The position numbers and the translations under genes are program-made. Of a stretch of DNA of 64,000 nucleotides, positions 21,984-49,212 are shown one piece after another; within the stretch, counting starts at the first letter, position 1; every line of letters begins with the position of its first letter. The stretch lies in NCBI RefSeq assembly GCF_000756715.1, contig NZ_CCSE01000001.1:558001-622000 (forward strand), read 5' to 3'. Origin of the DNA: Jeotgalicoccus saudimassiliensis. Lineage in GTDB: Bacteria > Bacillota > Bacilli > Staphylococcales > Salinicoccaceae. The notes below the pieces were generated by a model, which did not search any database, was not told the DNA's origin, and worked only from the letters and a program-made list of their open reading frames with translations.

Positions 21984-23237
21984 GTGAAACTAACAACAAT
22001 CGGATTAGGATATATCGGTTTACCAACTTCAATCATGTTCGCAAAACATGGCGTAGATGTAGTTGGTGTCGATATTAAACAGGAAGCAGTAGATATGCTT
22101 AATGGAGGACAAATCCACATCGAAGAGCCTGGTTTACAGGATGCACTGGAAGAAGTGCTTGAAACTGGTAAATTCAGAGCATCAACGACTGCTGAAGAAG
22201 CAGATGCATACATTATTGCTGTACCTACACCAAACAAAAACGATGAGTACAAGTCAGCAGACATCTCTATCGTAATGAGCGGTGTTGAGTCAATCGTTCC
22301 ACTACTTAAAAAAGGTGATACGGTAATCGTTGAATCAACAATTGCACCCCGTACTATGGATGACCATGTGGCACCTTACCTTGAAGAGCAAGGGTTTAAA
22401 ATTGGAGAAGACATTTACTTAGTACATTGTCCTGAGCGTGTACTGCCGGGTCAGATTATGCACGAACTTGTTTATAACAACCGTATTGTCGGCGGGATGA
22501 CCCCTCAATGTGTTGAAGCTGGTAAAAAAGTGTACGGTACATTTGTACAGGGTGAAATGATTGAGACAAACGCTAAGACAGCGGAAATGTCTAAATTGAT
22601 GGAGAATACTTATCGCGACGTGAATATTGCACTAGCGAATGAACTTGCAATGATTTGTAACCGTCTGGATATTAACGTACATGAAGTAATTGAAATGGCT
22701 AACAAGCATCCGCGTGTTAACCTGCACACACCGGGACCTGGTGTCGGCGGACACTGCCTGGCTGTAGATCCTTACTTCATTATTGCTGAAGCGCCGGAAG
22801 AATCTCCGTTAATTCAGTTATCAAGATCAATCAACGTGTCTATGCCTGAATATGTAGTGAACATTACTAAAAAAATGCTGTCTAAACTGAATGGCAACAA
22901 AGTAACTGTTTTCGGTTTAACATATAAAGGTGATGTGGATGATATCCGTGAATCACCAGCGTTTGATATTTACGAACTGCTTCGTAAAGAAGAAGGACTG
23001 GAAGTAAATACTTACGATCCGCACGTGAAAATGGACTTTGTTGAGAAAGATATGAAGTCTGCAGTGACTGATTCTTCATTAGTATTAGTATTAAGTGACC
23101 ATAGTGAGTTCAAAATCTTAACTGATAACGATTTTGAAACAATGAAAGACAAAGTGATCTTTGATACTAAGAATGTAGTACCTAATAACTTCTCTGAAGT
23201 GCAATACTTCAACTACGGTAATATTCAAAAATTCTAG
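21984..23237 (+). CDS. wecC: UDP-N-acetyl-D-mannosamine dehydrogenase (WecC/CapO type)
   Basis: This 417-aa protein has an N-terminal Rossmann domain (TIGLGYIGLPTS), the conserved CPERVLPG, and the catalytic GPGVGGHCLAVDPYFI with Cys258. It oxidises UDP-ManNAc in two steps to UDP-ManNAcA using NAD. The CPERVLPG and AVDPYF variants point to the ManNAc rather than the glucose enzyme. It supplies the uronic acid on which the lyase/epimerase and amide-forming enzymes downstream could act. A 2-epimerase that makes UDP-ManNAc is not in the window. The start is GTG 21984 with AGGTAGGG 9 nt upstream. A terminator follows. Confidence 0.9.
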   Translation: MKLTTIGLGYIGLPTSIMFAKHGVDVVGVDIKQEAVDMLNGGQIHIEEPGLQDALEEVLETGKFRASTTAEEADAYIIAVPTPNKNDEYKSADISIVMSGVESIVPLLKKGDTVIVESTIAPRTMDDHVAPYLEEQGFKIGEDIYLVHCPERVLPGQIMHELVYNNRIVGGMTPQCVEAGKKVYGTFVQGEMIETNAKTAEMSKLMENTYRDVNIALANELAMICNRLDINVHEVIEMANKHPRVNLHTPGPGVGGHCLAVDPYFIIAEAPEESPLIQLSRSINVSMPEYVVNITKKMLSKLNGNKVTVFGLTYKGDVDDIRESPAFDIYELLRKEEGLEVNTYDPHVKMDFVEKDMKSAVTDSSLVLVLSDHSEFKILTDNDFETMKDKVIFDTKNVVPNNFSEVQYFNYGNIQKF

Positions 23238-27025: not shown

Positions 27026-28849
27026 GTGTTAGTAAATAATATCGAAACATCGTATTCATACGTATTGCTGCATCAATCCTTGCAGTCTGACAATATCACA
27101 CAGAGTTCTAAAGTAAGTATTGGGGAATATAATTTACATTACAGTAATGATATGGACGTTACATTATATGAAGAGAATAACAGCCAGCTGATTGTACTGG
27201 GTTATATGCTTGATATTCGCGATGGTGACTTAACAGATATAGAAATCCTTCGAAACCTGTCAGTATCAAATGATATTGACAGGGAACTGGATTATATTAA
27301 TGGACGGTATGTGCTTATCGTTAATAAGGAAGCTGAGGCGGAAGTCTATACAGATGCGAGCGCATTGCTGCCGATTAACTATGCAGAGAATGAGAAAGTA
27401 ATCTCGTCACATGATATTCTGATTGAAGAAGTGCTGAAACAAAATAATATCGAAGTTAAACCGTTGAGAGAGGAACTGAAAGGTTCATTTGATTTTACAA
27501 GATATGAAAGTATTTTTAAGTTCAATCCCAGCTTAAAACTTGATTTAAGCACATGGGAATTTAAAAGATACTATCCGGATAAAGACATTGTTCATAAAAG
27601 CATCGATTTTGTTATTAAAGAACTGGAAGTATATTTTAATGAAATGATTAAATGGCTAAAGCATTCGCAGAAAGAAATTATACTCACTTTAACAGGGGGC
27701 TATGATTCCCGTGTATCGATGGCGTTGACGAATTCTTTCAGTGAAAAGGTAGAGTATATTACATATCTGCACCCGAATCTTGCACGTTTAAGTGAACGTG
27801 CGCAGGAAATATACGATATTGATATGTTTATAACTAAAGCTATTGGGACAAACTTAAATGTGAATCATACGATGGTGGACCTGGCGGATTATAATTTACA
27901 GGGGAATGAAAGGAAAAATGCCCTGCAGACTTTGCAGACTGCACATTCATTCTCTTTAATAGACTATTTCCGCAATGAAAGAAAATTTAATAAAGCTCTT
28001 CATATTAAGTCCACAGTATATGGAATGGGGAAATCGGACTTTCCTTTAAAGAAAAATCATAATCCCGCTACTTATGAAGAGATGAACGATTTCATACACG
28101 GTGTTTCAAAAGAAGCGGTTAAATTTCCGAATTATAATGATATCGTTAAAGAATACTATAAACGTAATCTTCATAGTGAAGGTGTAGGGAAAGGCAGGCA
28201 TTACTTTGAAATTTTCCATCTGGAGAGCCGTATGGGGAATTGGCACAGTAATGTAACGCAGGAGACAGATCCTGAATTGCTGGATTTCATTTTTGTAAAT
28301 ACACGCAGAATTATCGATCTCCTGCAGTCGCCTTCGATTCAGGAACGTAAAGATAAAGTGCTGTATAAAACTTTGATAAATAAATATTGGCCGGCACTTT
28401 TGTTTATAGGCGTAAATGAGAAAACGATTAATGTGGATTATGATAAAATCGGATTGACCAATCAGTATATTAATGGTCTGAAGATTTATGAGCTGAATAA
28501 CCTGGAGTTAGAAAAAAATGCAGATAATGTGTTTACGATTAAACCGGATTCAGAGTTCGTGGGTCCGCAAAATCAGTATGTATTTAAAGCGAAAAATAAT
28601 ACGCATGAATCAAAAACTTTGCATCTAAAGAGTCTTTTTAATAAAGAAAGCGGCAGAAAGTATATTAATGTTAAAATAATGAAACTTGATAATAAAACTT
28701 TTAAGAGTATCGATATCGTCGACTTATTTGAAGGTTATGATGTCACACTTGAACCTTTCCAGCAGTTTATGATTAGAATAGATTATAGTAATGTATTCGA
28801 CAAAGCATCATGGCAGCAGGCAGGACGTATTCAAATAAGTAATGTATAA
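27026..28849 (+). CDS. Asparagine-synthetase-like amide-forming enzyme, no glutaminase Cys (module A)
   Basis: This 607-aa protein has an N-terminal Ntn/GATase-II-like domain (about 1-150, GYMLDIRDG and YINGRYVLIV segments) that starts MLVNN and so lacks the Cys2 nucleophile. It is followed by an AsnB synthetase domain with the PP-loop LTGGYDSR (T223-R229) that binds ATP pyrophosphate. A C-terminal beta-rich part ends in KASWQQAGRIQ. Without Cys2 it cannot release ammonia from glutamine. It could use another amine, as beta-lactam synthetase does, or free ammonia. The likely target is a carboxyl group such as ManNAcA. GTG 27026 has GGGGGGA upstream. Confidence 0.78.
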   Translation: MLVNNIETSYSYVLLHQSLQSDNITQSSKVSIGEYNLHYSNDMDVTLYEENNSQLIVLGYMLDIRDGDLTDIEILRNLSVSNDIDRELDYINGRYVLIVNKEAEAEVYTDASALLPINYAENEKVISSHDILIEEVLKQNNIEVKPLREELKGSFDFTRYESIFKFNPSLKLDLSTWEFKRYYPDKDIVHKSIDFVIKELEVYFNEMIKWLKHSQKEIILTLTGGYDSRVSMALTNSFSEKVEYITYLHPNLARLSERAQEIYDIDMFITKAIGTNLNVNHTMVDLADYNLQGNERKNALQTLQTAHSFSLIDYFRNERKFNKALHIKSTVYGMGKSDFPLKKNHNPATYEEMNDFIHGVSKEAVKFPNYNDIVKEYYKRNLHSEGVGKGRHYFEIFHLESRMGNWHSNVTQETDPELLDFIFVNTRRIIDLLQSPSIQERKDKVLYKTLINKYWPALLFIGVNEKTINVDYDKIGLTNQYINGLKIYELNNLELEKNADNVFTIKPDSEFVGPQNQYVFKAKNNTHESKTLHLKSLFNKESGRKYINVKIMKLDNKTFKSIDIVDLFEGYDVTLEPFQQFMIRIDYSNVFDKASWQQAGRIQISNV

Positions 28850-28864
28850 AATCGGAGGTCAGTC

Positions 28865-30346
28865 ATGTTAAACAGTTTTGAAATATCACATGAAGTGAAT
28901 AATCAATACAGTTGTAACTATAAATTAAAGGATGACTTGGTTATAAGCTATGACCATGAAGATATTTTTAACAGGGTTATAAAAAATAACAGTACAATCA
29001 TCAGCTACGGTTACTGTTTCGATGTCAGAAATCCAAATCAAAACATGAAAGAAACATTAAGTAATCTTTTAAATAATCCCTCTGAGATTCTGGAAAATAT
29101 TAAATATTTAAACGGACATTTTATATTGGTATTTAAAACGAACAATAGCTGGAAACTGATCACAGATGCTGCAGGAATGACACCTGTTTATTTTGATGCT
29201 GCTGAGAAAATTGTGACAGTACACAATACAGTTACACTGCCGACATTAAACGGTGTATCTATTCTAGATCTGCAAGACTTTACATTATCGAGAATCAGTA
29301 TAAGCGACAGCAGGCTGACGGATGAACGTATTGAAAGAACTGTGTTGGATCTTGTAAGCAACCAATATAAATATTTCATCGATAAAGATGTAACTTTGAA
29401 TTTCAGAAGAAATAAAATGAACAAAGCGATTATTTCTATACTGCGCCCGGTTCTTATGAATCAGACACTGAATCTCAGAGAGAATGATGAACTGACTGTT
29501 AAAATCGGGCACTGGATGGCACGTGAGTATAAAATGAATATCCTGGAAGAAGATGCAGAAGCTTCATCAACTTATCTTGCCAATACCCATCTGATGAATT
29601 ACAGCTTTTATATGAGAAAAGATATTGATTTGGCAGATAAAGAACTGAATAACTTTAATAATTTATACAATTTGAATGATGGAAATTTAGAAGATCGCTC
29701 TAGTATAGAATATAATCTGCTGCATAAACTGAATTACAGAAATGACCAGAAGCCTCAGCTGATTTATGATCCGTTTAATGTATTGGCAATACAGGAAATC
29801 ATATACAACTTTAACGATGCTGCCGTATTTAATCCTCTAACACGAATTATTAAAATAATGCATCCGTCAATTGATTTTTATGATTTTTCTGAGGGCGTGA
29901 CATTACTGCAGAAATATACAAAAATGAAGAAACAGAATCAAAAAATGTCAGAAGAGCTGAAGAAAGTAGTAGTGAATCAGGAATTCCTACGGGAAGCTGA
30001 AGCACAAGGGATTAGTGTATCTGAGAATCTGGACGGTAAAATTCTGGATAAAGGAATTACTGTTCATCCGGCATCCCAGCTTATCAGTAAAGATGATATT
30101 TATGAAATGACTTATGTTAAAAACGGCCCGGGCATGATTCTTGTTGAAACTTACTTTAACAACCCTAAGAATGCTCACAGAATCAAAATTGAATTAAATA
30201 ATGAAACTTTTAATATCGATGAATTTCTGGAAGGAAAGTTTATACAAGCAAATTCAGAGATAAATATTAAAATGTATTATGAACGAAATTATGATGCGGC
30301 ATCATGGCAAAAGGCAGGAAAGATAACTGTTAAAGAAATAGATTAA
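28865..30346 (+). CDS. Asparagine-synthetase-like paralogue with lost PP-loop
   Basis: This 493-aa protein is built like its upstream neighbour: an N-terminal GATase-like domain (SYGYCFDVRN, YLNGHFILVF, ITDAAGMTPVYF), a middle helical domain, and the same C-terminal mark (DAASWQKAGKITV). Where the neighbour has LTGGYDSR, this one reads LNFRRNK (178-184), so the ATP pyrophosphate loop is gone. The gene is otherwise intact and has a strong CGGAGGT ribosome binding site before ATG 28865, so it is probably a retained non-catalytic partner rather than a pseudogene. A terminator follows and closes module A. Confidence 0.68.
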   Translation: MLNSFEISHEVNNQYSCNYKLKDDLVISYDHEDIFNRVIKNNSTIISYGYCFDVRNPNQNMKETLSNLLNNPSEILENIKYLNGHFILVFKTNNSWKLITDAAGMTPVYFDAAEKIVTVHNTVTLPTLNGVSILDLQDFTLSRISISDSRLTDERIERTVLDLVSNQYKYFIDKDVTLNFRRNKMNKAIISILRPVLMNQTLNLRENDELTVKIGHWMAREYKMNILEEDAEASSTYLANTHLMNYSFYMRKDIDLADKELNNFNNLYNLNDGNLEDRSSIEYNLLHKLNYRNDQKPQLIYDPFNVLAIQEIIYNFNDAAVFNPLTRIIKIMHPSIDFYDFSEGVTLLQKYTKMKKQNQKMSEELKKVVVNQEFLREAEAQGISVSENLDGKILDKGITVHPASQLISKDDIYEMTYVKNGPGMILVETYFNNPKNAHRIKIELNNETFNIDEFLEGKFIQANSEINIKMYYERNYDAASWQKAGKITVKEID

Positions 30347-31290: not shown

Positions 31291-33921
31291 TTGAATAAGC
31301 AATCGGTTGTTGAGCAGTTTAATGATTACTTTATCAATAAAAATAGAGTGAAGCATATTGAAGATTTATCATATAATCTACCGCTTAGTGATATTACAGG
31401 AATTAATAAGAACAATATTATAATTGGACGGACTTCTATAAGTATACCTGAACATATATTAGAGAATTCAACAGGTAATAAGACTATACTTGATGCATTC
31501 ACAAATAGTAAAAATGAGATTTACTATGTCGATTCTGAATATAAAAAATATTATCGTATTGGTTATGATATAGAAGTAGAGAACTATAGTCTCAGGGAGA
31601 ATGAAATTTTAAAATTTGAATTTAACTATGACAATCATGATGATATTAACTGTCATTTTATAGTTATCGAATTTTCTACAGAAAAAGGTATTTTAGCGAG
31701 GAAATATTCGAATTTGAATGATGTACGTATTTTACCAAATAAAGAAACTAACTACCTGAGAGCTTTTATTGTCCCCGAAAATAAAGGATTTTTTTATAAT
31801 TTAGAAATGAATGTAGTAAAAGAAAACATGACAGTTTTAAGCAATACGTTTTTAGAATTAAATACAGATGTAATGTATAATCCGGACACTCGGGTAACAA
31901 TGAAAAAAGATAATGATAATTTATTAATTTCAGTTCCTGAATTAAATAAAAATTTCATTTACTTTTCTTATGGAATTCAGAACAACAGTTTCAATAAATT
32001 ACCCGAACAGTCATTAATTAATATTAATACGAAAAACCTTTATAAATTAATAACGCCATTTAAATTACATGATGAAATTGATTTCACACCGACTGTAATT
32101 GAATACAATAATACTGGGAAAACAAATTTAATTAAACTGACAAATGAAAGCGAGTTTATCAGATTTCAAAAAGACACAACTGCTATCCGCTTAAGCTATA
32201 GATTTACTGGTACAGGTAAGGTCGAAATACAGCCGATCAATATTATTGAATATGAAACAGAAACGGAATATGAAATTGTTGAATGGAATAGCCGTTATGA
32301 AATTGATACTCATATGAAAACAATTAAAAGCATAAAAGATTTAAGAATGGCAGTTATAATGGATGAGTTTACATATCATTCTTATAAATATGAAGCAGAT
32401 TTACTCAGATTGACATTTGATAACTGGAAAAATGAAATAAATTCGTTTATGCCACATTTTATATTTATAGAGTCAAGCTGGCATGGAAACAATGGAGACT
32501 GGTCTAAGAAAATAGCTTATGTTACCGATGAGAAACATAGCTATATTAAAGATTTGATTGCTTTTGCACAATCATTAAATATCCCAGTAGTTTTTTGGAA
32601 TAAAGAAGATCCTGTACATTATGATCATTTTATTCATACTGCTAAATTATGTGATTATATATTTACCACAGACCAAGATAGAGTCGATGACTATAAAGCT
32701 GCATGTAATCATGAGAATGTTGATGTTCTTCAATTTGCAGCACAACCGGTAAACCATAATCCATTGAAGATTCAAAAAGAAAGAGTCGATGGAATTTCAT
32801 TTGCTGGTTCTTATTACGGATTGAGAGAAGAACGATCAAAAGATATGAACAGATTATTCAAAGCCTCAATTCCTCATAATCTGTATATCTATGATCGTAA
32901 TTATGAATATACAAAGAAAGGTGAGCGTTTAAATTTCCTTTTCCCTGAAGAATTCAGAAAGTATATTCTCGGTACATTACCATTTTATGAAATTGAAAAA
33001 GCTTATAAAGGCTATAAGTATATGATAAACATCAATACTGTGAAAACCTCTCCTACCATGTATGCACGTAGAGTATACGAGGGACTTGCATCTGGGACTC
33101 CAATTATCAGTAATTATAGTTTAGGTATGGAGAAACAGTTCGGTGATATTATAGGGTATTCAGAGAATACAGATGAACTTAATGATTACTTAGCGAAACT
33201 CAATAATAGTCCAAGTGAGTATAATAAGGTAAAACAGCTTGGTGTTAGAAAAGTACTGTCTGAACATACTTATGAACAGCGCCTGCTGCAAATTGCTGAT
33301 ACACTTGGTTATGAGTTTACTTTAGAAGAGAAAACGGTGACTTTTATAACGTTTATTGATAATAAAGACGAAATTTCCAGTATAGTTGATCAATTCGAAA
33401 GTATTATCTACTCAAATAAACAGTTAATCATTGCGGTAACAGATGAAATAAATGATTACAGTATAATAAATAAAAACATCTCAATTCTGAACGAAAAACG
33501 GCTGACTGAAAATTTTGAAACGCTGTCTAAACTCGCAGAAACTCATTATATTTCACTGCTGAGTCAGAATGATTATTATGCACCTAACTACCTAAAGGAT
33601 TTGATGCTGGCTGTGCAGTACACTGATGCTAGTGTTATCGGTAAGAGCAATTACTTTGTGTCTAAGAATTATAACCTTGATGAAGTTAATGAGAATTCTG
33701 AACACGAATATACTGAAAATATAAATATGAATTCAGCAATCATCCGTTCAAGTCTTTTCTCTAATTTTAATCTTGAGGAAACTTTTAATTACCTTAAAGG
33801 TAATAAAGATATAACTGAGCTTAATTATCTTGGATTTAAAATCTATTCAAATGATAAGATGAACTATATTAAAAATGGTAATGAGATTTCTGACAATCAG
33901 AAATATAATGTATTAGTATAG
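31291..33921 (+). CDS. CgeB-like glycosyltransferase with N-terminal beta domain
   Basis: This is an 876-aa protein. Residues 1-330 look beta-rich and may bind carbohydrate. Residues about 345-700 match the CgeB-like domain of the 24354 protein: LRMAVIMDEFTYHSY, NKEDPVHYDHFIHTAKLCDYIFT, SFAGSYYG, and TSPTMYARRVYEGLASGTPIISN. The C-terminal 180 residues resemble a GT2 remnant (TFITFIDNKDE, SLLSQNDYYAPNYL), but I see no clear DxD, so this part may be inactive. TTG start at 31291 with AAGAGGGTG upstream. The next gene begins 10 bp later. Confidence 0.78.
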   Translation: MNKQSVVEQFNDYFINKNRVKHIEDLSYNLPLSDITGINKNNIIIGRTSISIPEHILENSTGNKTILDAFTNSKNEIYYVDSEYKKYYRIGYDIEVENYSLRENEILKFEFNYDNHDDINCHFIVIEFSTEKGILARKYSNLNDVRILPNKETNYLRAFIVPENKGFFYNLEMNVVKENMTVLSNTFLELNTDVMYNPDTRVTMKKDNDNLLISVPELNKNFIYFSYGIQNNSFNKLPEQSLININTKNLYKLITPFKLHDEIDFTPTVIEYNNTGKTNLIKLTNESEFIRFQKDTTAIRLSYRFTGTGKVEIQPINIIEYETETEYEIVEWNSRYEIDTHMKTIKSIKDLRMAVIMDEFTYHSYKYEADLLRLTFDNWKNEINSFMPHFIFIESSWHGNNGDWSKKIAYVTDEKHSYIKDLIAFAQSLNIPVVFWNKEDPVHYDHFIHTAKLCDYIFTTDQDRVDDYKAACNHENVDVLQFAAQPVNHNPLKIQKERVDGISFAGSYYGLREERSKDMNRLFKASIPHNLYIYDRNYEYTKKGERLNFLFPEEFRKYILGTLPFYEIEKAYKGYKYMININTVKTSPTMYARRVYEGLASGTPIISNYSLGMEKQFGDIIGYSENTDELNDYLAKLNNSPSEYNKVKQLGVRKVLSEHTYEQRLLQIADTLGYEFTLEEKTVTFITFIDNKDEISSIVDQFESIIYSNKQLIIAVTDEINDYSIINKNISILNEKRLTENFETLSKLAETHYISLLSQNDYYAPNYLKDLMLAVQYTDASVIGKSNYFVSKNYNLDEVNENSEHEYTENINMNSAIIRSSLFSNFNLEETFNYLKGNKDITELNYLGFKIYSNDKMNYIKNGNEISDNQKYNVLV

Positions 33922-33931
33922 GGTGAAAATT

Positions 33932-36325
33932 ATGGATAAACGAACTAGATTAAAATATATTATGCCTATGACTGGTAATAGTACTTCTAAAAATAAAGTG
34001 TTAGCTTCTGAAAATATTATTAATAATAATATTTTTAATTTGAATAATAATTATGATATATCTGTTAATGTTAATAATAATTGGGAAACTGAGAGTAAGT
34101 CTCGGAGTTTAAGAAGATGGTTACATACACATATATTTTTAAGTGACTTTACACGTGCATATAGTGAGACAAAAGATGAAAGATATTTTACTGAGAGTTT
34201 TAAATTATTAACTGATTGGTTTGAAACATTTCCTATTGAGAAAATTGACAGTATAGATCCTTTAGCATATCACGATGAAGGTACTGCTATCAGATTACTA
34301 TTTTGGTTCAAGTACTATAATCAATTTATAGAGTTATTTCAACCAGAACAATTATCACTTTTTGAATCAAAAATTGAAGAAACAGTCACTTTACTAAATT
34401 CAGATGAATTTTATGCAGGATTAAATAATCACGGTATGTTTCAAGATATGTCTCTTTTAGCGTACTCATTTTATAAGTACGAAGATTTTTCAGAAAGTGC
34501 TATTTTTAATAAAGCACTGGAAAGAATATATATATATTTTAGAGAAGTATTTACTAGTGAAGGAGTTCATAAAGAGCACGCGCCTTCTTACCATGTGCTT
34601 TTACTGCACAGTTTAAAACAAATACTAACTTCACTGAATTTAGCAGATTACTCTGATTTCAGAACGGATAGTTTGAAAGATATTTTCGAAAAAGGTGAAA
34701 TTTACACAATAAATATAACCATGCCTGATTTTAAATTACCTAATATTTCTGATAGTACTCATAGCACACAAATAAATATGTCTACTTCAGGTGTTTATAG
34801 AAATCTTTTCAACAGTGAAGAATACAAATTTATTACTTCAGGGGGCAAGGAAGGAAAACAACCTCTCCCATTGATAAAAAACTTCCCGGAGTCAGGTTAT
34901 TTAATAGCCAGAGATGGTTGGAAGAAAACGTCCACTTATTTCCTTTTTCTGGCAAGTTATCATATGCATTACCATAAACATACAGATGATTTAAGTTTTA
35001 TTCTATACAAAAACGGACCTATATTTATTGATTCCGGTCCTCATAACTATAATTATAAAGAACCATTTACTGAATATGCGTATTCTCAATTTGCACATTC
35101 TACCTTAATAGTTAATAATAATTCTTTACCGCGAACTGATTATAAATTTAAAGAGGTTTATATTTCAGATAGTCAAGTTGACACTGCTAACAACACATTT
35201 TCTGTAGAAGGTACTAATAAACGCTATAAAAATACAGAACATATACGAAGAATATCTGGTGATCTAGATAAAGGTAATTTTAAAATAACAGATAAAATAC
35301 ATTCTTCAGATTCTAATCAATACAAAGTGCTTTTTCAAATAAACGGTGATCTTGATGTTCTATTGAATGGCAACATAGCCTCTATTTTTAAGAATAACGC
35401 TAAAGTAGCAGAACTTGAAGTTAATCACCATAGCGGACTTTCAGAAATGAAAGTATATAATGTTAGTGGGCAAAAACACCCTAAAATTATGGGCTACCAA
35501 TTCCTTAAAATAGAAGAACCAAAGCATTCAAATACTTTAGTAATAGAGGGTTACAATAATAATTCTGAAGCAGTTATTGATACGGAAATACGTCTTCAAG
35601 AATTTAAAATAAAAGGAACTGCTAACTTTAGTAAAAAAAATGAAATAAAATCCTTTAGAGATATTTCCTATGTATATGAAGATTACAACAATAATAAGTT
35701 AGCTGTTATATTCAGTCCTACAGAGGATAAGTATATTTATAAACTAGATGAATTTAATGACCTTCATAAAAAAGGATTCAATATCTTATATCTTTATGAT
35801 AATCAATCTATAGTGGGAAGATCCTTTATACAAGGGAATTCATCAAGTACAGTAGAGGTAGATGTGCTTATGGTGATTAATAAAATAATAAATGAAAATA
35901 ATTACAGCAACGAAAGTACATACTTCTTTGGGCGATCTAAAGCTGGGTTTGCAGCCATATATTATGCACTGAATTCAGGGTTTGATAATGTATTTGTTTC
36001 TTCTCCTCTGATTTTGATAGGAGACTATTATACAAGACATGAAAAATTTGATAATATGGTTGATACTCTAGGTTTTGAAGAAAAAGAAAGCTTAAAATAT
36101 TATTTAAATGATTATCTCAGTAATATACGTGAATTCTCAAAACTTAAAAATATTAATATTTGCGTAGGTGAGAACGATTACCATAAAGGTAAACATGTTG
36201 GTTATTTATTAAAATTTTTAACGGAAAAATCTATCACTTATAATCTGCATGTTTATCCAGGAACTTATTTTCCAGAAGACAAAGAGGAATTTATTAAGTA
36301 CTTAATGAATTATAGTTTTGAATAA
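33932..36325 (+). CDS. Heparinase II/III-fold enzyme fused to an alpha/beta-hydrolase-like domain
   Basis: This is a 797-aa protein without signal peptide. Residues 1-560 form the helical toroid plus beta-sandwich of heparinase II/III-like lyases, with the catalytic set visible: NNHG (H167, preceded by Asn), APSYH (Y220), HKHTDDLSF (H348/H350) and FAHST (H389). Residues about 590-797 look like an alpha/beta hydrolase: a FFGRSKAG elbow with Ser669 and a VGENDYHKG acid loop. It could cleave or epimerise uronate residues and remove or transfer an acyl or aminoacyl group. The fusion is unusual. ATG 33932 has AGGGTG 6 nt upstream. The base composition is very A+T rich. Confidence 0.78.
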   Translation: MDKRTRLKYIMPMTGNSTSKNKVLASENIINNNIFNLNNNYDISVNVNNNWETESKSRSLRRWLHTHIFLSDFTRAYSETKDERYFTESFKLLTDWFETFPIEKIDSIDPLAYHDEGTAIRLLFWFKYYNQFIELFQPEQLSLFESKIEETVTLLNSDEFYAGLNNHGMFQDMSLLAYSFYKYEDFSESAIFNKALERIYIYFREVFTSEGVHKEHAPSYHVLLLHSLKQILTSLNLADYSDFRTDSLKDIFEKGEIYTINITMPDFKLPNISDSTHSTQINMSTSGVYRNLFNSEEYKFITSGGKEGKQPLPLIKNFPESGYLIARDGWKKTSTYFLFLASYHMHYHKHTDDLSFILYKNGPIFIDSGPHNYNYKEPFTEYAYSQFAHSTLIVNNNSLPRTDYKFKEVYISDSQVDTANNTFSVEGTNKRYKNTEHIRRISGDLDKGNFKITDKIHSSDSNQYKVLFQINGDLDVLLNGNIASIFKNNAKVAELEVNHHSGLSEMKVYNVSGQKHPKIMGYQFLKIEEPKHSNTLVIEGYNNNSEAVIDTEIRLQEFKIKGTANFSKKNEIKSFRDISYVYEDYNNNKLAVIFSPTEDKYIYKLDEFNDLHKKGFNILYLYDNQSIVGRSFIQGNSSSTVEVDVLMVINKIINENNYSNESTYFFGRSKAGFAAIYYALNSGFDNVFVSSPLILIGDYYTRHEKFDNMVDTLGFEEKESLKYYLNDYLSNIREFSKLKNINICVGENDYHKGKHVGYLLKFLTEKSITYNLHVYPGTYFPEDKEEFIKYLMNYSFE

Positions 36326-36371: not shown

Positions 36372-37979
36372 ATGAAAACTAGATATGAAATTGCTGAAGA
36401 GGTTGTCAGTAATTATAAAGAGAATAAATTATTACTAAAAATAGGGTTTGATTTGATTGATATATCAAATGGTATAGACTGGAGATACAAACATACTTCG
36501 AATGTTAGAACTTATTCAGTATATCTCCATACTTTAGATTTTTTGAAAAGTATTGTAATGGTATACGAAGAAACAAAAGAGGAAGACCTGGTCATATTAG
36601 CGAATAAAATTTTGACTAGCTGGTATGAATATAATGAAATTCGTAAAGACATAGATGAATTTGTTTGGAATGAACATGCTGTTTCTAATAGACTGCATAA
36701 TATTCTATATTATTTTGAGAAGCTTGGCGAACTGACTGCTGATAATCAAAAATATTTTGATACAATTATCGAAGAACACTGTGATTTTTTAATTGATGAA
36801 AATAATTATAGACCTAATAATCATGGGATTATGATGGACAAAGCTTTAATTGAAAGTGTTTCTTATATACGAAATGAAAAAATAAAAAAACTATATTTAA
36901 GTAAAGCGTTATACCGTATTAAGCTAGCAATTTTCAGAGATTTTTCAAGACGTGGGGTGCATCTTGAAAATTCACCAGAATATCACAGGATGGTTCAAAA
37001 GATACTGCATATAACCAATCAGACTTTAATAAAGAAAAATATTAAAATAGGCAGTGAAGAACATAGGCTTATTAATTTGGCTAAATATTTTAATAGGATT
37101 ATGCTAAAGCCAAATAGTTCTTATCCATTAATAGGAGATACTGGCTATATTTATGATAAATATACTAAAAAAACTTTTGAAGACTTTGTAGATTATGATT
37201 CAGGGACTGTTATTTTTCAACAAGAACATAAGGATAACTTAGAAGAAAGTTTCTATTTATTTTTCAAATCAGGTTACAAGAGAAAAACCCATAAACATAA
37301 AGATGATTTATCTTTTATCTTAACCATGGATGGTTCGGATATAATCACGGATTCTGGTAAATACAATTATGATAAAAAAGATAATTTAAGAGATTATTTT
37401 ACGTCTCAAAATGCTCACAGTACTATAATAATATCTAATAAAGATTACTCATATGGCAACCCCATAAGTGATCAATTTGATTTAGAAATTAAGAATGTAA
37501 AGATTAGCGATGATTTGAAGGTTGCCACAGGCATTAATAATCTGTATCCAAACTGCAAACTTAAACGTACTGTAATAGTAACTTCAGATCATCTAGTTAT
37601 AATTCTAGACGAAGTTCTAGCTGAGGAGAAGGTAGATATAATTCAAAATTTTATACTTTCTGAACAGCTTTCTGTATCCAAAATTGATAATAAATCATAT
37701 TCAATGGTAGATAATAAGAATACATTTGTTATTCAGAATTTAAACAAAAATTTTGATGATTTAGAGAGTAGTGTGAGTGAGTCTAAAATATCTTATAGAT
37801 TTAACGAATATGATGAGAATTTAAAAATATCATTTACTTCGAGTATGATAAATTCAAATATAGTTACTTGTATATATAATGAAAATAAAGGTATAAAAAA
37901 TGTTCAGTATAATAACAAAAATAATATTTTAACTTATGAAATTAACTCAAAGATAAAAGAATTTAATCTTTTTGACTGA
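36372..37979 (+). CDS. Heparinase II/III-fold protein (module B)
   Basis: This 535-aa protein is all toroid plus beta-sandwich with no signal peptide. The active-site counterparts are NNHGIMMD (N149/N150, H151), SPEYH (Y204), THKHKDDLSF (H307/H309), DSGKYNY, and NAHST (H349). In studied heparinases the Asn, Tyr and His residues abstract the uronate C5 proton. The same geometry serves dermatan sulphate C5-epimerase, so lyase and epimerase cannot be told apart here. It is closely similar in layout to the 44465 and 47320 proteins. GGTGGG precedes ATG 36372. Confidence 0.8.
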   Translation: MKTRYEIAEEVVSNYKENKLLLKIGFDLIDISNGIDWRYKHTSNVRTYSVYLHTLDFLKSIVMVYEETKEEDLVILANKILTSWYEYNEIRKDIDEFVWNEHAVSNRLHNILYYFEKLGELTADNQKYFDTIIEEHCDFLIDENNYRPNNHGIMMDKALIESVSYIRNEKIKKLYLSKALYRIKLAIFRDFSRRGVHLENSPEYHRMVQKILHITNQTLIKKNIKIGSEEHRLINLAKYFNRIMLKPNSSYPLIGDTGYIYDKYTKKTFEDFVDYDSGTVIFQQEHKDNLEESFYLFFKSGYKRKTHKHKDDLSFILTMDGSDIITDSGKYNYDKKDNLRDYFTSQNAHSTIIISNKDYSYGNPISDQFDLEIKNVKISDDLKVATGINNLYPNCKLKRTVIVTSDHLVIILDEVLAEEKVDIIQNFILSEQLSVSKIDNKSYSMVDNKNTFVIQNLNKNFDDLESSVSESKISYRFNEYDENLKISFTSSMINSNIVTCIYNENKGIKNVQYNNKNNILTYEINSKIKEFNLFD

Positions 37980-39997: not shown

Positions 39998-40333
39998 ATG
40001 AAGAATTTTATACTATCTTTCCTCCAAATAAAAGAGAACAATATTGATTTTATCCAGATCACGGTCGAAGAAGTCAGTCATAAAGGTATTAAATCACTGT
40101 TTATCACGGCCAAGCTCACGTACAATCCAACGCATTGTCCAGATTGCGGATGCATCAATGCGGATTACAGTATAGTTAACAATGGCACCCGTGCCTCTCG
40201 AATCACTTTGCCGCACATCTCTGGTCTGCCGGCATTCTTAAAGCTGTCTAAGCAGCGCTATCTCTGTAAAGACTGCGGACATAGTTTTACTGCAGAGACA
40301 CAAGTGGTCGAAAAACATTGTCATATCTTATAA
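39998..40333 (+). mobile_element. ISL3-family transposase remnant (N-terminal 111 aa)
   Basis: The zinc-binding N-terminus of an ISL3 transposase is visible: THCPDCGCIN, then RYLCKDCGHSFTAET. The frame stops at 40331 with about three quarters of the usual 430-aa transposase missing. I could not identify inverted repeats with confidence. It is a dead fragment. Confidence 0.85.
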
Positions 40334-40389
40334 ATGCTAGTATAAATATGTACAGATGGGCATGCGGACAAAATCTTAGACCAAATTGG

Positions 40390-41745
40390 TTAGTAGGAAG
40401 TCGAAGTATGCTTATAAGGAAAAATTAAAAGCTATAAATCTTTATTTTAAATACGAATCATACGCTGCTGTAATAAACGAACTCGGGTACTCTCACGTTT
40501 GTCACTTAGAAACTGGATAGAAGAACATAAACGGCATGGTGACGTTAAAAAGGAAATTACGAGTCGGTCTAACACAGAAAAACAGAAAAAGACGGCAGTG
40601 GATCATTATTTAGAGCATGGTAAGTGTTATTCTCGTACAATTAGAATGCTAGGGTATCCAAGTCATGGGCTTTTAACGAATTGGGTAATGGAAATGGCAC
40701 CTCAGTCTCGTAAATTTAAAAGAAATGGGATAAACTTAACATCAAAAGAAAAAGAAGCTGGTGTTTTACTCACTCGTAATACATCTGCACAGAAAATAGC
40801 GGATGATATGGGGTTAGCCGAGAGCCTCTTTACCAGTATAGAGTCCAGCTGCTTGGCAAAGGTGTGTCTATCAATAAAATGAAGAAACCTAGTGATACAG
40901 ACGTAATAAATTGAAAGACCAAGTCAAGTAACTTCAGGATGAGCTATCTCAACTTCAAATGCAAAAAGATATACTAGAGAAAGCAGGAGAAATTATAAAA
41001 AAAGACCAAGGCATCTTTCTGGAAGCGCTGACTAACCAAGAAAAAACAACCCTGATCCATGCCCTTCGTCCAAAGTACAAACTTTATCAATTACTAACAT
41101 CTATTGACATTCCCAAAAGTAGTTATTGTTACCATAAGAAACAACTTGCTCTGCCGAATAAATACAACTATGTGCGGGTTCAAATTATTGATATTTTCAA
41201 AGTAGGAAAGTGTCTTTACGCCTACCGTTGGATACATGCGTCATTAAAAAATATAGAGATTATCCTGTCGAAAAAAAGTGCGACGTATAATGCAGGAAAA
41301 AATCTCGTTGCGAAATCCATTAAAATGAGAAAATATAGTTCGTATGATGGAGAGATATCACCTGTTGTCCCTAATATTTTGAAGTAGATAAAATAAATGA
41401 TAAATGGGTTACGGAATTTTGTATACTTAGCGGTAAGGTATATCTATCTCCAAGGATTGAATACGGTGTTATCGTGGGTTGGACAATGAGAGTATCACCC
41501 CTAATGCAGAGTTAGTTAATACAGTGCTTGATCAGGCGATGCAAATGTTACAAGAGGGAGAGAAACAAATTGTTAATACGGATCGGGTTGCGCATTATCG
41601 TTGGCATGGATGAATTGATCGAAAGGATAGTAATAACTTAATACGTTCAATGTCCAAAAAAGGATGTTTTCCCGATAACCCTCCATGTGAGGGCTTCTTT
41701 GGACGGTTAGAGAGTATAAAATTTCTATATTTAAATAAAATAAAA
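40390..41745 (+). mobile_element. Decayed IS3-family element (orfA and orfB in pieces)
   Basis: The orfA part reads as a helix-turn-helix (YAAVINELGYSH in one frame, then SLRNWIEEHKRHGD in the next at 40499), a second HTH (YSRTIRMLGYPSHGLLTNW) and a third segment (SAQKIADDMGL). The orfB part starts near 40911 (DELSQLQMQKDILEKAGEIIKK), continues to 41387, then breaks into integrase-core pieces (VTEFCILSGKVYLSP, VNTDRVAHYRWHG, PCEGFFGRLES). Several frameshifts and stops show it is inactive. It belongs to the IS150-like group. Confidence 0.82.
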
Positions 41746-42056
41746 AATTAATAACAGTTAATTTTTTATCTATTTTAAAAGATAATGTATTAGATTTTTT
41801 CCATAAATAGTTTATATAAATACATTTAGTCTGGTATTAGATTATACTTTTACTAAAATAAATTTATAACAAAATGTGATAAAGCAATGAAATTATGTGA
41901 ATATACTTATGGTATAATCTAAATACTTAGATATAAAGTCAATATAATTTATTTAATCAGTGTTCATATAATGCTAAATATGAAGTTATATTAGTTAATA
42001 CGAGTGAATTTTTTCTAATAAATAATTATATAAAATTAATTAAGGTGATATCAAAA
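41746..42056 (+). other. A+T-rich intergenic stretch upstream of module C
   Basis: About 310 bases without a gene follow the IS remnant. The only signal I see is an extended -10 promoter at 41910-41918 and the ribosome binding site TAAGGTGA at 42041. Confidence 0.6.
41910..41918 (+). promoter_or_regulatory. Extended -10 promoter for the YheCD-like ATP-grasp gene
   Basis: TG-G-TATAAT (41910-41918). The leader to the start codon at 42057 is about 130 nt. Confidence 0.5.
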
Positions 42057-43127
42057 ATGAATAAATTAAAAAATATACAACCTGTGATTGGTATACTAGC
42101 GCAGTCAGAATTTCATAAAGAGCTCTATAATCATTGTGCTATTGTTTCAAAGTTTTATGATTGTGAAGTATTTTATTTTTCCAATTCTAATATAGATAGT
42201 TCTAATGACTTAATTAAAGGTAAAACATTTCAAAATGGGAGATGGATTTGGAAGGATTATTCTTTAAGCAATGGTATAGATGTTATTTTTGATCGTTTAA
42301 GAACAGCTTCTTCTCCAAAATATAAACATGTATATGACAAAATAAAACATATTCCAACGACACACCCTAATTTTGGTCAAAAAATGAATAAATTAACTTT
42401 TTACGATAAATTCTACGAAGAAGGAACCTTACTTGAAAATATAATTCCTTATGAAAGATTTTTGAGTACTAAGGCCACATTAAATTTTTTAGAAAAACAT
42501 AGAAATATTATTTTGAAACCTCAGTCGTCCTCTGGCGGTAAAAATTTATATTATATATACTTTAATGATAAAAATATTGAAGTTGCTCTAGAGAAATCTA
42601 TAATAAGTTATTCATCAGAAGAATTTAGCAAATGGCTCGATAACCTCTCTGGTAGGGATAACTATGTACTTCAAAAATTTATTCCCTCTAAAACATTAGA
42701 TAACCATCCTTTTGATATTAGAGTTCATATGATACGTAATATTAATAATGAATGGGAATTTTTAGCAATAGTCCCGCGGGTTGGTCACGATATAGCTAAA
42801 ATTTCAATGCTTAGCAATGGTGGTTATATTGGTCAATGGAAAGGGTTTGTTAGTAGAAATTTCAGCAAGGAAAATTATAAAAAAATAAATAGAAATATTA
42901 GAGAGATTTCATTGAAAAGTGTAAAAGTTATGGAAAAAGTTTTTGATTCTAAAATAACTGAAGTTGGTATTGATTTTGTAATTAATAAAGATAATAGTAT
43001 TTATTTTGTCGAATATAATGTAAATAAGCCTGCTGAATTTTATGCAGGTTTTGATCTTGCGTTAAACGGTATAGGCTATGCAAGATATATTGCTTTAAAT
43101 GCAACTGAAGAAGATTATATTTTATAA
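42057..43127 (+). CDS. YheC/YheD-type ATP-grasp protein
   Basis: This is a 356-aa ATP-grasp protein of the YheCD (spore-coat associated) group: N-terminal IQPVIGILAQ, IFDRLRT, THPNFGQKMNKLTFYDKF, ATP-binding IILKPQSSSGGKNLYY, DIRVHMIRN and the metal-binding VGIDFVIN...FVEYNVNKPA. ATP-grasp enzymes join a carboxyl to an amine or thiol through an acyl phosphate. The substrate is unknown. Here it opens module C beside two other ATP-grasp genes. I chose ATG 42057 with AAGGTG 9 nt upstream. It is a single-gene unit ended by a terminator. Confidence 0.8.
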   Translation: MNKLKNIQPVIGILAQSEFHKELYNHCAIVSKFYDCEVFYFSNSNIDSSNDLIKGKTFQNGRWIWKDYSLSNGIDVIFDRLRTASSPKYKHVYDKIKHIPTTHPNFGQKMNKLTFYDKFYEEGTLLENIIPYERFLSTKATLNFLEKHRNIILKPQSSSGGKNLYYIYFNDKNIEVALEKSIISYSSEEFSKWLDNLSGRDNYVLQKFIPSKTLDNHPFDIRVHMIRNINNEWEFLAIVPRVGHDIAKISMLSNGGYIGQWKGFVSRNFSKENYKKINRNIREISLKSVKVMEKVFDSKITEVGIDFVINKDNSIYFVEYNVNKPAEFYAGFDLALNGIGYARYIALNATEEDYIL

Positions 43128-43151
43128 TTTCTATTTTAATATTTAATTTGG

Positions 43152-43178
43152 AAAGCTGGATAGTATCCAGCTTTTTTA
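43152..43178 (+). terminator. Terminator after the YheCD-like gene
   Basis: AAAGCTGGATA/TATCCAGCTTT has a short loop and T6. Confidence 0.9.
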
Positions 43179-43248
43179 AATATGTTTCTTATAATATCTA
43201 AAGAAAAATACTTTAAAGTCTGATTTTAAATTTGATGAGTAATACTTT

Positions 43249-43277
43249 TTAATTATGATAAAATTATTATATATAAT
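43249..43277 (+). promoter_or_regulatory. Probable promoter of the Ddl-like operon
   Basis: TTAATT (43249-43254), 17 nt, TATAAT (43272-43277), 31 nt before the start codon. Confidence 0.45.
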
Positions 43278-43307
43278 ATTGAAATTCTTAAAAATTGGAG
43301 TGATTGG

Positions 43308-44366
43308 ATGTCAAAAATAAGTATAGGAATAATATACGGAGGGAAATCAACAGAGCATGAAATCTCTATGCGTTCTGCTGAGAGTGTTTTAACTGTTCTG
43401 GACAAAAAAAGATATGATATCAACTTAATTTATATTACCAAATCTGGTGAATGGCTTTTGACTAAAGCTGAAGATCTATTCAATTGGAAAGAGAAGTCTG
43501 CAGAAAAAGTAAGAATAGTTTCTCCAGGCAGGATTGAAGGTACAGATATTAATAAGCAATTGGATGTTGTTATTCCAATACTTCATGGAACTATGGGTGA
43601 AGATGGTACTGTTCAAGGATTGCTTGAACTTGCAGAAGTTCCTTACGTTGGTTGTAATGTAAGAAGCTCAGCTATTTGTATGGATAAAGATATAACTAAG
43701 AAATTACTGAAAAGTGAAGGTATCGATGTGGCTAAATCAGTAGTGTTTAAATATAACGAGAAAAATAAAGCTAACTTCAATAAAACAAAAGAAAAACTTA
43801 GTCTTCCAATGTTTGTTAAACCAGTCAATCAGGGATCGTCCGTTGGAGTCTCGAAGGTAACTGATGAAAAAAGTTTCTATAATGCTATTGATGAAGCATT
43901 TAAATATGATACAAAAGTAATGGTTGAAAGTGCAATAAATGGACGTGAAATTGAAGTGGCTATTCTTGGGAACATGGATCCATTTGTATCGTTACCTGGT
44001 GAAATTATATCTAATACAGAATTTTATTCATATGAATCGAAATACATAGATGAAAAAGGTGCCAGTCTAGAAATACCTGCAAAACTAAACTCTTTCCAAG
44101 TCACAGCTTTACAAGAAGTTGCATTGAAAACATTTAAGATTTTGGACTGTGAAGGACTTGGAAGAGTTGACATGTTTCTGACTGATGATAACGAAATTTT
44201 TGTAAACGAAGTTAATACATTTCCCGGATTCACAAATATTAGTATGTATCCCAAATTACTTGAAGTATCAGGTATTGAATATTCTAGTCTTATTGAACGA
44301 CTGATTGAATTAGCTTTGCAAACTCATAAATTAAAAACCGATTTAAGAAAAAGTCTGATTAAATAA
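43308..44366 (+). CDS. D-alanine-D-alanine ligase paralogue
   Basis: This 352-aa protein is complete for the Ddl family: IIYGGKSTEHEISMRSAESV, HGTMGEDGTVQGLLE, VKPVNQGSSVGVSKV, GREIEVAILG and NEVNTFPGFTNISMYP (N303). It joins D-Ala to D-Ala or a related pair using ATP. The usual YDYxxKY loop reads YSYESKY, a change near the substrate-selecting region. Housekeeping ddl in staphylococci normally lies beside murF, not in a surface-polymer island, so this is likely a second ligase making a dipeptide or aminoacyl amide for the polymer. TTGGAGTG precedes ATG 43308. Confidence 0.85.
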   Translation: MSKISIGIIYGGKSTEHEISMRSAESVLTVLDKKRYDINLIYITKSGEWLLTKAEDLFNWKEKSAEKVRIVSPGRIEGTDINKQLDVVIPILHGTMGEDGTVQGLLELAEVPYVGCNVRSSAICMDKDITKKLLKSEGIDVAKSVVFKYNEKNKANFNKTKEKLSLPMFVKPVNQGSSVGVSKVTDEKSFYNAIDEAFKYDTKVMVESAINGREIEVAILGNMDPFVSLPGEIISNTEFYSYESKYIDEKGASLEIPAKLNSFQVTALQEVALKTFKILDCEGLGRVDMFLTDDNEIFVNEVNTFPGFTNISMYPKLLEVSGIEYSSLIERLIELALQTHKLKTDLRKSLIK

Positions 44367-44464: not shown

Positions 44465-46090
44465 ATGAATATTGAAAAATTAGTTCCATATAATAAAAGA
44501 ATGGAAACAAATTTTAGAAGATTGTTAAGAGGGAGATTATATATTAAACGTAATCTTGATCCGATTAAATATGAAAAAGAAATTGACTGGAATTTTAACC
44601 ACCACAGAAATCCTAGAACATATCAAGTATATTTGCATAGTTTAAATTTTGTAAATGATATCACTTGGTCTCATATAAAATCGCCTAAAACCATGAAGGT
44701 CAAATTAGCGCGTGCAATAATTGATGATTGGATTAAATATCACTTAGAAGAAAGTTATATTTTAAAAGAAAATAATTTAGCGTGGAATGAACATGCGGTA
44801 TCATATAGAATTATAAATTTTATTTTTTTCCAATCTGCTTATAAAAACACGTCTAAATTCGAAGAGGAAGAATTTCAGAATTTACTATTAAAACATGCAG
44901 ATTTTCTTTTTGAAGATGAGAATTATAAAGAAAATAATCATGGAATTATGATGGATAATGCGCTTCTTTGCACCAGTTTTTTCATAAACGATACTAAGAA
45001 AAAGAAAATGTATCAAGAAAAATCAATAAGCAGACTCTATAAAACTATCAATAGAGATTTTAGTGAAAAGGGAGTACATTTAGAAAATTCTCCAGAATAT
45101 CATAAGTTAGTAAGAATTCTTTTTCAAAGAACTGAATATTTATTGGACTCTATTGATATAAAAATCCCAACACCTTTGAAAGATAAACTAGAGAAAACAT
45201 ATAACTATAATCAACTGATTCTTAAACCGGATTCGTATTATCCATTAATCGGTGACACAGGACAAATTAAAGAACAAACTACAAAGAAAATATATAAAAA
45301 CTTCGTAGATACTGAAGCTGGCCAATGCATTATACAATATAAAGATAAATTAGATAATCTAAATAGTAAACACCTGGTTTTCATATCTGGATACAGTAAA
45401 CTCACACATAAACACTATGATGATTTATCTTTTGTTTATTTTGAAAATGGTAATGATATATTTATAGATTCTGGTAAATATAGTTACAATAAAAATAATG
45501 AAGTCAGGAAGTATATAATTTCTCCTTCCGCACATAATACATTGCTTATAAAAGATATGGAATATAAATACAGTGATTATGAAAATGATAAAGAAAACTT
45601 AGGAATTAAAGAGTATAAAGAAACAGAAGATTATACTAAAGTTAGAGGAATAAATAATCTTTATAAGGATACTAATATTTCAAGAACGCTAATAAATACT
45701 AAAGAAGGTATTATATTTATAGTTGACGAAATTGATTCTCAAAATAAACAATTATATTATCAAAATTTCAATTTAGCCCCAGATGCAAAAGTTAAATATA
45801 AAGATGAAAAAAGTATATTGATAGAAGTAGGAAATATGAAATATACACTTGAAACTGTCAAAGTAAATAATGTAAAGACCTCTACAGAAATTACAAGTGG
45901 GAAAATCTCCAAAAAATTCGGTAATTATACACCTAACCATAAAACTGCTTTTATTAAAAAAGGTAAAAGTAGCAAGTTTTTAACATATTTTTATAACAAT
46001 ATCGATGATGTTGCTATTGTAAGTTATTCATTCAAGAATAGAACAATAGTTTATGAATATAACAGTCAAATAAAGACTTTAGAATTTTAA
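44465..46090 (+). CDS. Heparinase II/III-fold protein (module C, first)
   Basis: This 541-aa protein has no signal peptide. Catalytic counterparts are NNHGIMMD (N157/N158, H159), SPEYH (Y212), THKHYDDLSF (H315/H317), DSGKYSY and SAHNT (H357). Overall it is the same length and layout as the 36372 and 47320 proteins, with very lysine-rich, A+T-driven composition. It sits between two ATP-grasp genes. Likely a uronate lyase or C5-epimerase acting on the polymer or its lipid-linked repeat. AGGTGA precedes ATG 44465. Confidence 0.8.
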   Translation: MNIEKLVPYNKRMETNFRRLLRGRLYIKRNLDPIKYEKEIDWNFNHHRNPRTYQVYLHSLNFVNDITWSHIKSPKTMKVKLARAIIDDWIKYHLEESYILKENNLAWNEHAVSYRIINFIFFQSAYKNTSKFEEEEFQNLLLKHADFLFEDENYKENNHGIMMDNALLCTSFFINDTKKKKMYQEKSISRLYKTINRDFSEKGVHLENSPEYHKLVRILFQRTEYLLDSIDIKIPTPLKDKLEKTYNYNQLILKPDSYYPLIGDTGQIKEQTTKKIYKNFVDTEAGQCIIQYKDKLDNLNSKHLVFISGYSKLTHKHYDDLSFVYFENGNDIFIDSGKYSYNKNNEVRKYIISPSAHNTLLIKDMEYKYSDYENDKENLGIKEYKETEDYTKVRGINNLYKDTNISRTLINTKEGIIFIVDEIDSQNKQLYYQNFNLAPDAKVKYKDEKSILIEVGNMKYTLETVKVNNVKTSTEITSGKISKKFGNYTPNHKTAFIKKGKSSKFLTYFYNNIDDVAIVSYSFKNRTIVYEYNSQIKTLEF

Positions 46091-49175: not shown

Positions 49176-49212
49176 TTATTTAATAATTAATAAAGTTAGG
49201 ATGGATGATTTA

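Follow-up and report, generated by a model that had tools for sequence, protein, structure and literature searches.

Several described proteins resemble one half or the other of a single gene in Jeotgalicoccus saudimassiliensis. The gene lies at 33932..36325 on the + strand of a 64,000-nucleotide stretch of the genome, termed here the window (contig NZ_CCSE01000001.1, positions 558,001 to 622,000), and joins a heparinase-like half to a half related to the acetyltransferases CsaC and Asp2. In the excerpts of PMC7501274, CsaC is described as an O-acetyltransferase with the catalytic triad Ser114, His228 and Asp198, assisted by Gln138. Transfer requires His228, an acetyl-enzyme is still formed by the protein lacking His228, and a proposal has Gln138 substituting for His228 in the first half-reaction; the acceptor is a polymer of N-acetylmannosamine (ManNAc). 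Asp2 is also an O-acetyltransferase according to excerpts of PMC5578698, where its catalytic activity can be separated from a second function and triad mutants still support export. For the other half, the catalytic residues of the heparinase III (HepIII) structure 4MMH are named in a section of PMC12088678, and human dermatan sulfate epimerase 1 is described in part of PMC8006597 as having a heparinase II/III lyase-type fold, a Tyr base, and His450 and His452 on a single loop.

The fusion of heparinase and CsaC-like domains is real, and its architecture is a little-noticed combination of already known parts. None of the literature titles found was about such a fusion, most subscription journals lying outside the scope of that search, and a relative in Caballeronia is publicly annotated by its heparinase part alone, so that its second domain has been overlooked. 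The fusion, the predicted fold, the family ties, the residues, the purifying selection and the locus reported below were all computed. The explanation we tentatively prefer, giving it somewhat less than an even chance, is a cytoplasmic protein that tailors a uronate polymer and combines an active heparinase half with a CsaC-derived, probably non-catalytic half. If the pairing is functional, uronate conversion and O-acetylation of acidic surface polysaccharides would be tied to a single protein. Nature supplies copies that possess the triad His and others that lack it, a ready comparison for whether CsaC/Asp2-type domains do anything besides catalysis.

The fused gene

33932..36325, + strand: fused gene, 797 amino acids; a longer frame starts at GTG 33923

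The open frame extends from 33923 to 36325 on the + strand and no frame of at least 100 amino acids overlaps it. ATG 33932, preceded by AGGGTGA, is the better start. A preliminary description of the window had proposed that a heparinase-type enzyme is fused here to an alpha/beta-hydrolase-like domain, and this was borne out by the single 797-residue frame and by the recurrence of the architecture in three further genomes: Jeotgalicoccus coquinae DSM 22419, Salinicoccus sp. YB14-2 and, as a distant relative, Caballeronia insecticola. Chance and a sequencing or assembly artefact were ruled out, given that the J. saudimassiliensis genome consists of a single 2.19 Mb contig and that other genomes carry the same architecture. 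Inspection of the N terminus by eye, without a predictor, revealed no signal peptide or membrane segment. A full-length model built on a 7-row alignment was set aside; its predicted local distance difference test score (pLDDT) was 57 and its predicted template modelling score (pTM) 0.49, with the C-terminal part mostly below pLDDT 50.

Fold and relatives of the C-terminal domain

35657..36322, + strand: CsaC/Asp2-like alpha/beta-hydrolase domain, residues 576-797 (model, fold matches, and profile against PDB sequences)

Residues 556-797 were modelled separately on a 5-row alignment and yielded an alpha/beta hydrolase with pLDDT 79 and pTM 0.83. For fold comparison, 1000 Foldseek candidates were re-aligned by VIA-align and all 1000 scored Z of at least 8, so that the alpha/beta-hydrolase fold suggested earlier for the C terminus was upheld. 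The top match was the meningococcus A capsule O-acetyltransferase CsaC (Z 23.4, root-mean-square deviation (rmsd) 3.0, 226 residues aligned), followed by Gap2/Asp2 of the Gap123 complex (Z 21.2, rmsd 3.4, 229 aligned). A profile of the domain searched against PDB sequences returned CsaC (E 5e-13), the XcbB/CpsF protein 9HVZ (4e-7) and Asp2 (1e-4). Family models gave sub-threshold scores: 24.7 bits for Asp2 PF16929, under the Pfam cut-off of 28, and 40.2 bits against a cut-off of 125 for XcbB/CpsF NF033892, a family in which one molecule name of 9HVZ contains 'ACoA' and to which the sequence match is weak. By sequence and modelled fold, then, the C-terminal domain is nearest to the glycan O-acetyltransferases CsaC and Asp2.

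CsaC (SacC) of N. meningitidis serogroup A (6YUO/6YUQ/6YUS/6YUV) has the fold, the Ser-Lys elbow, the acid Asp and a capsule-type setting in common with the fused domain, but it stands alone, and its His228, Gln138 and Ser113 have no equivalents in the window protein. Asp2 of the accessory Sec system (6OYC, 6LNW) resembles the fused domain in fold, while its partner domain is different.

The domain had also been put forward as a possible esterase, and an enzyme that removes acyl groups would be in keeping with the alpha/beta-hydrolase fold, the elbow Ser and the acid-loop Asp. Esterase-type hydrolases do appear in the fold ranking, but only from Z 19.2 downwards (best match rmsd 3.0, 220 aligned), below the O-acetyltransferases that are nearest by both sequence and fold, and none of the three Staphylococcaceae fusions (those of the two Jeotgalicoccus genomes and Salinicoccus) has the triad His. 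The esterase proposal was therefore not sustained, and we regard it as very improbable.

Active site of the C-terminal domain

35933..35938, + strand: Arg668-Ser669; nucleophile Ser669, with Arg668 at the place of CsaC Ser113, which contacts coenzyme A (CoA) (alignments)
36008..36010, + strand: Leu693, in the position of CsaC Gln138 (alignments)
36038..36040, + strand: His703, a speculative substitute base, near CsaC Arg148 by hand count (alignment)
36176..36196, + strand: acid loop with Asp749, His751 and His755 (invariant in 4/4 fusions)
36248..36268, + strand: last strand and loop, residues 773-779, with no triad His in the loop (model, alignments)

Residues were counted in the fusions and in 17 unfused homologues with E < 1e-20, taken from stretches hand-picked by their C-terminal matches together with L065 and L066. 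Some matches, most Asp2-sized frames of ~520 amino acids and four duplicate or truncated copies were left out of this set, and 14 weaker homologues (E > 1e-20) stand outside the counts. The GRSKAG motif occupies residues 667-672, and the elbow reads GRSKA, ARSKG and GRSKA in the Staphylococcaceae fusions, keeping the Ser in all three without a strict GXSXG. The claimed Ser669 proved to be conserved in all four fusions (3/3 from Staphylococcaceae, plus Caballeronia) and in 17/17 unfused homologues, and the Lys that follows it is present in 17/17 unfused homologues and 3/3 Staphylococcaceae fusions. Two of the weaker homologues (L033 and L034) have Ser-Ala rather than Ser-Lys, and the corresponding alignment column shows no His in them, so the motif is not universal among remoter homologues. 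The acid loop GENDYHKG, which starts at residue 746, is likewise real: its Asp749, ahead of the last helix-strand unit, is matched by Asp in the other Staphylococcaceae fusions and in Caballeronia, and the acid column is kept in 16/17 unfused homologues.

Three other positions depart from CsaC. At the CsaC Ser113 column, Arg is found in 3/3 Staphylococcaceae fusions, as against Ser in Caballeronia and 16/17 unfused homologues. The Gln138 column holds Leu, Ile and Leu in the three Staphylococcaceae fusions; Caballeronia has Gln, and the unfused proteins have Gln (12), Thr (4) or Ser (1). Caballeronia and 17/17 unfused homologues have the triad His that follows the last strand, as against 0/3 Staphylococcaceae fusions, its place in the window protein being taken by Tyr779 or Phe780 in two alignments. 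A complete Ser-His-Asp triad was not found in the window protein: in the model and the alignments alike, no His occurs in the loop beyond the last strand, and His773 falls inside the predicted strand 770-775.

In the explanation we prefer, the C-terminal half would have descended from an O-acetyltransferase of the CsaC/Asp2 type. The Caballeronia half, to judge from its retained Ser, Gln, Asp and His, should acetylate. The Jeotgalicoccus/Salinicoccus half, in which the triad His and the Gln are lost and an Arg is gained beside the Ser, would most likely be a non-catalytic module for acceptor binding or assembly. Such a role has a precedent, since Asp2 with a mutated triad supports export (PMC5578698, excerpts). 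The coupled processing envisaged in the preliminary description can fairly be inferred for the Caballeronia protein, in which the second active site looks intact, but is doubtful for the Jeotgalicoccus protein.

Two observations count against loss of catalysis. Ser669, Lys670, Asp749, His751 and His755 are invariant in 4/4 fusions, an unexpected pattern for an inactive site, and with a shifted gap His773 could be taken for the triad His, since it lies 8 residues from the Pro of a following Phe-Pro pair, as the His does in most unfused homologues. The equivalent of His773 is Thr in Salinicoccus, and J. coquinae has no His there. The same invariant residues would suit a working lyase or epimerase joined to a working O-acyltransferase whose base is His773 or has been relocated to His703, His751 or His755. 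His703 occurs in just those three fusions that lack the loop His (Caballeronia has Gln), near CsaC Arg148 by hand count, and CsaC without His228 does form the acetyl-enzyme (PMC7501274, excerpts). However, 3/3 of these fusions differ at the positions of both the triad His and the Gln, and at that of the CoA-contacting Ser, where they have Arg. His755 is also His in all 17 unfused relatives that have the triad His, and so probably serves another role. Retained acyl transfer is thus possible though doubtful. A bolder form of it would have a family of single-chain polymer editors in which epimerisation or lysis of uronate is coupled to O-acyl transfer, with a rebuilt acyltransferase site in Staphylococcaceae: Ser669 and Asp749 kept, the triad His relocated (His703 being the best candidate), and Arg668 in the CoA pocket hinting that the acyl donor or acceptor is a different one and acidic. 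This we consider decidedly unlikely.

The heparinase half

34010..34810, + strand: Heparinase II/III N domain, residues 27-293 (Pfam PF16889 Hepar_II_III_N, 71.7 bits, cut-off 22, E 9.4e-20)
34868..35380, + strand: Heparinase II/III C domain, residues 313-483 (Pfam PF07940 Hepar_II_III_C, 85.4 bits, cut-off 24, E 5.7e-24)
34427..34429, + strand: Asn166, corresponding to HepIII Asn240 (alignment to heparinase III)
34589..34591, + strand: Tyr220, corresponding to HepIII Tyr294, base/acid (alignment to heparinase III)
34973..34981, + strand: His348-Lys-His350 loop, His348 corresponding to HepIII His424 (alignment to heparinase III)

Residues 1-560 had been described as heparinase-like and of lyase or epimerase type, in agreement with the two Pfam domains above cut-off and the intact Asn/Tyr/His centre. 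HepIII residues were mapped by alignment to 4MMI with 24 added to the chain number, an offset taken from the agreement of all three residues. Asn166, Tyr220 and His348 are invariant in 7 aligned heparinase-like rows and in 4/4 fusions, and on these residues the heparinase half looks active. The fused protein missed the cut-off of the HepC equivalog NF045573 (95.2 bits against 700). Heparinase III (PL12; 5JMD, 4MMH) shares the domain family and the Asn/Tyr/His centre, but is a degradative heparan-sulfate lyase, whereas the fused gene has an additional domain and lies in a biosynthetic locus. The His348/His350 pair can be likened to His450/His452 of dermatan sulfate epimerase 1, a kinship that depends on the account in part of PMC8006597.

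We infer that the two-domain protein is cytoplasmic and tailors a uronate-containing surface polymer prior to export by an ATP-binding cassette (ABC) system. Its heparinase half would target uronate residues while the chain is growing; because the gene lies in a biosynthetic locus, a C5-epimerase is considered more likely here than a depolymerising lyase. Alternatively, this half could be a true lyase serving chain-length control or editing, with the C-terminal half as in the explanation we prefer, which this alternative overlaps. The HepIII-type Asn/Tyr/His centre is consistent with a lyase, as is the fact that every heparinase-type PDB chain matched bears the name heparinase II or III. On the other hand, no signal peptide was seen by eye, and four heparinase-type genes sit in one biosynthetic locus with no match elsewhere in the genome; a true lyase is accordingly judged unlikely.

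Distribution and origin of the fusion

A search of other genomes for the same fusion located it in the three named above. By genome set it was present in 3/33 of the family and 3/157 of the order, with no further match in a frame >593 amino acids in the order-level set, and in the class and phylum samples (1/398 each) it was found in its own genome alone. Profile searches of chromosomes covered Bacillota; a contig scan across all phyla with two short peptide patterns returned 2 loci. Among 72,556 plasmid records the fusion was found in one, and 8 records matched some part of it. The fusion was not found in phages, where one record matched the heparinase half and none the second domain, or in viral contigs, which yielded an unfused heparinase. 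The latter gene (L159, 2719-4332) is on a putative viral contig, with lysozyme-like and integrase-like frames near it by eye.

The Caballeronia insecticola protein (WP_160167957.1, 'heparinase II/III family protein') is encoded on plasmid p2, beside glycosyltransferases and polysaccharide deacetylases. It has 863 amino acids and matched query residues 51-756 in one piece (tblastn, E 2e-64). Domain order is identical to that of the window protein at 27% identity, with an additional C-terminal extension; GSSKGG, the Gln, the Asp, the triad His and the Ser113 equivalent are all present. A profile built from the 17 unfused proteins, with this one not among them, gave it 192 bits, compared with 100-105 for the three Staphylococcaceae fusions and 98 for CsaC.

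In a heparinase tree of 26 proteins, for which the fused sequences were cut off ahead of their second domain, all four fusions formed one clade (support 99/97); its neighbours were unfused proteins of Cytobacillus spongiae and G492, and the Caballeronia branch was long. In the tree of the second domain a stem of 1.76 changes per site led to the three Staphylococcaceae copies, and Caballeronia was placed elsewhere; a single origin was not rejected (approximately unbiased test, p-AU 0.21). The simplest reading would be a single ancient fusion in which the acetyltransferase half was active, its chemistry being later lost or changed in the Staphylococcaceae branch; independent fusions to one heparinase subfamily are a possible alternative.

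An additional domain was looked for in seven long heparinase frames of other genomes (L067, L070, L077, L128, L131, L133 and L134), taken from a set of ten proteins; two of the seven frames carry SH3 or cell-wall-binding repeats, and the others gave lyase- or epimerase-type matches only. In a separate case (L142, 3799-6786), DUF6270 and a heparinase domain share a 995-amino-acid frame, and a CsaC-like gene lies 2.2 kb beyond it. Two sets of plasmid hits (H14-H39, H42-H79) were mostly annotated as the accessory Sec protein Asp2 among the matches listed (30 and 40 of 45); ~40/45 of the matching records are from Enterobacterales and 42-43/45 are conjugative. To our knowledge, Enterobacterales are not known for accessory Sec systems.

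Selection and recombination

Across residues 580-797 of the three Staphylococcaceae fusions, nonsynonymous divergence (pN) was 0.22-0.41 and synonymous divergence (pS) 0.66-0.81, the synonymous sites being near saturation. The C-terminal domain is under purifying selection, and since pN is below pS and pocket residues are invariant, it is kept for something. It evolves faster than the heparinase half, and this, with the stem branch of 1.76, is what would be expected had it merely been decaying since the fusion. Against decay stand a pN well under a near-saturated pS, the absence of stops in three genomes and the kept pocket residues, and we hold it to be extremely improbable.

DNA identity to Salinicoccus YB14-2 (L066, 9001-11391) was 96-100% over residues 1-400, 81-93% over 401-600 and 60-69% over 601-797. 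There is thus a recombination boundary inside the gene, between two genera, where the variable part of the locus has its edge, with the second domain on the variable side, as might be expected of a part that tracks a changing polymer type.

Genetic context

31291..33921, + strand: glycosyltransferase-like gene, upstream, 876 amino acids (Pfam Glyco_trans_1_2)
36372..37979, + strand: next gene, unfused heparinase-like, 535 amino acids (Pfam)
44465..46090, + strand: second unfused heparinase-like gene, 541 amino acids
47320..48966, + strand: third unfused heparinase-like gene, 548 amino acids
14845..16572, + strand: ABC-2 permease and ATPase of polysaccharide export type (Pfam ABC2_membrane and ABC_tran, above cut-off)
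21984..23237, + strand: nucleotide-sugar dehydrogenase, most like UDP-ManNAc dehydrogenase (TIGR03026, 459 bits, above cut-off)

All four PF07940 matches of the genome are in one locus with the exporter, the dehydrogenase and several glycosyltransferases. The best NCBIfam matches of the exporter were galactan and teichoic acid exporters, under their cut-offs. The dehydrogenase scored 421 bits with PRK11064, just below the cut-off of 459, and on its family match would supply the uronate donor. A ManNAc-derived uronate at this locus would be in keeping with the ManNAc polymer that CsaC uses as acceptor (PMC7501274, excerpts).

Unfused relatives of the second domain are often near a heparinase gene: 11/17 lie within 5 kb of one and 5/17 within 0-83 bp, three of these five being from one genus, as compared with 3/14 of the weaker homologues within 5 kb. 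These three weaker homologues and three of the 11 are from a single genus (G050, G054, G055), and L065, also among the 11, has the fusion itself as its closest heparinase gene. Part of this proximity reflects a shared habitat, since both gene types cluster in polysaccharide loci. In the three genomes of that genus (L135, L136, L137), a heparinase gene stands between two different CsaC-like family genes, 0-70 bp away.

Several other genes of the window were seen in passing. The polysaccharide locus contains a YheCD-type ATP-grasp gene, a D-Ala-D-Ala ligase-like gene and another ATP-grasp gene (42045-44366, 46112-47260), perhaps for amino-acid decoration of the polymer. The frames at 27026-30346 and 49201-51435 are asparagine-synthetase-like by eye, with no Pfam match above cut-off at the thresholds used; the second has a weak NCBIfam match to XrtA amidotransferase (18 bits against 817). 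Short transposase-like frames, also recognised by eye, occur at 39998-41387 and are probably broken insertion sequences at the variable end of the locus. For the stretch 40352-41709, J. coquinae (L026) contains a match at 90%.

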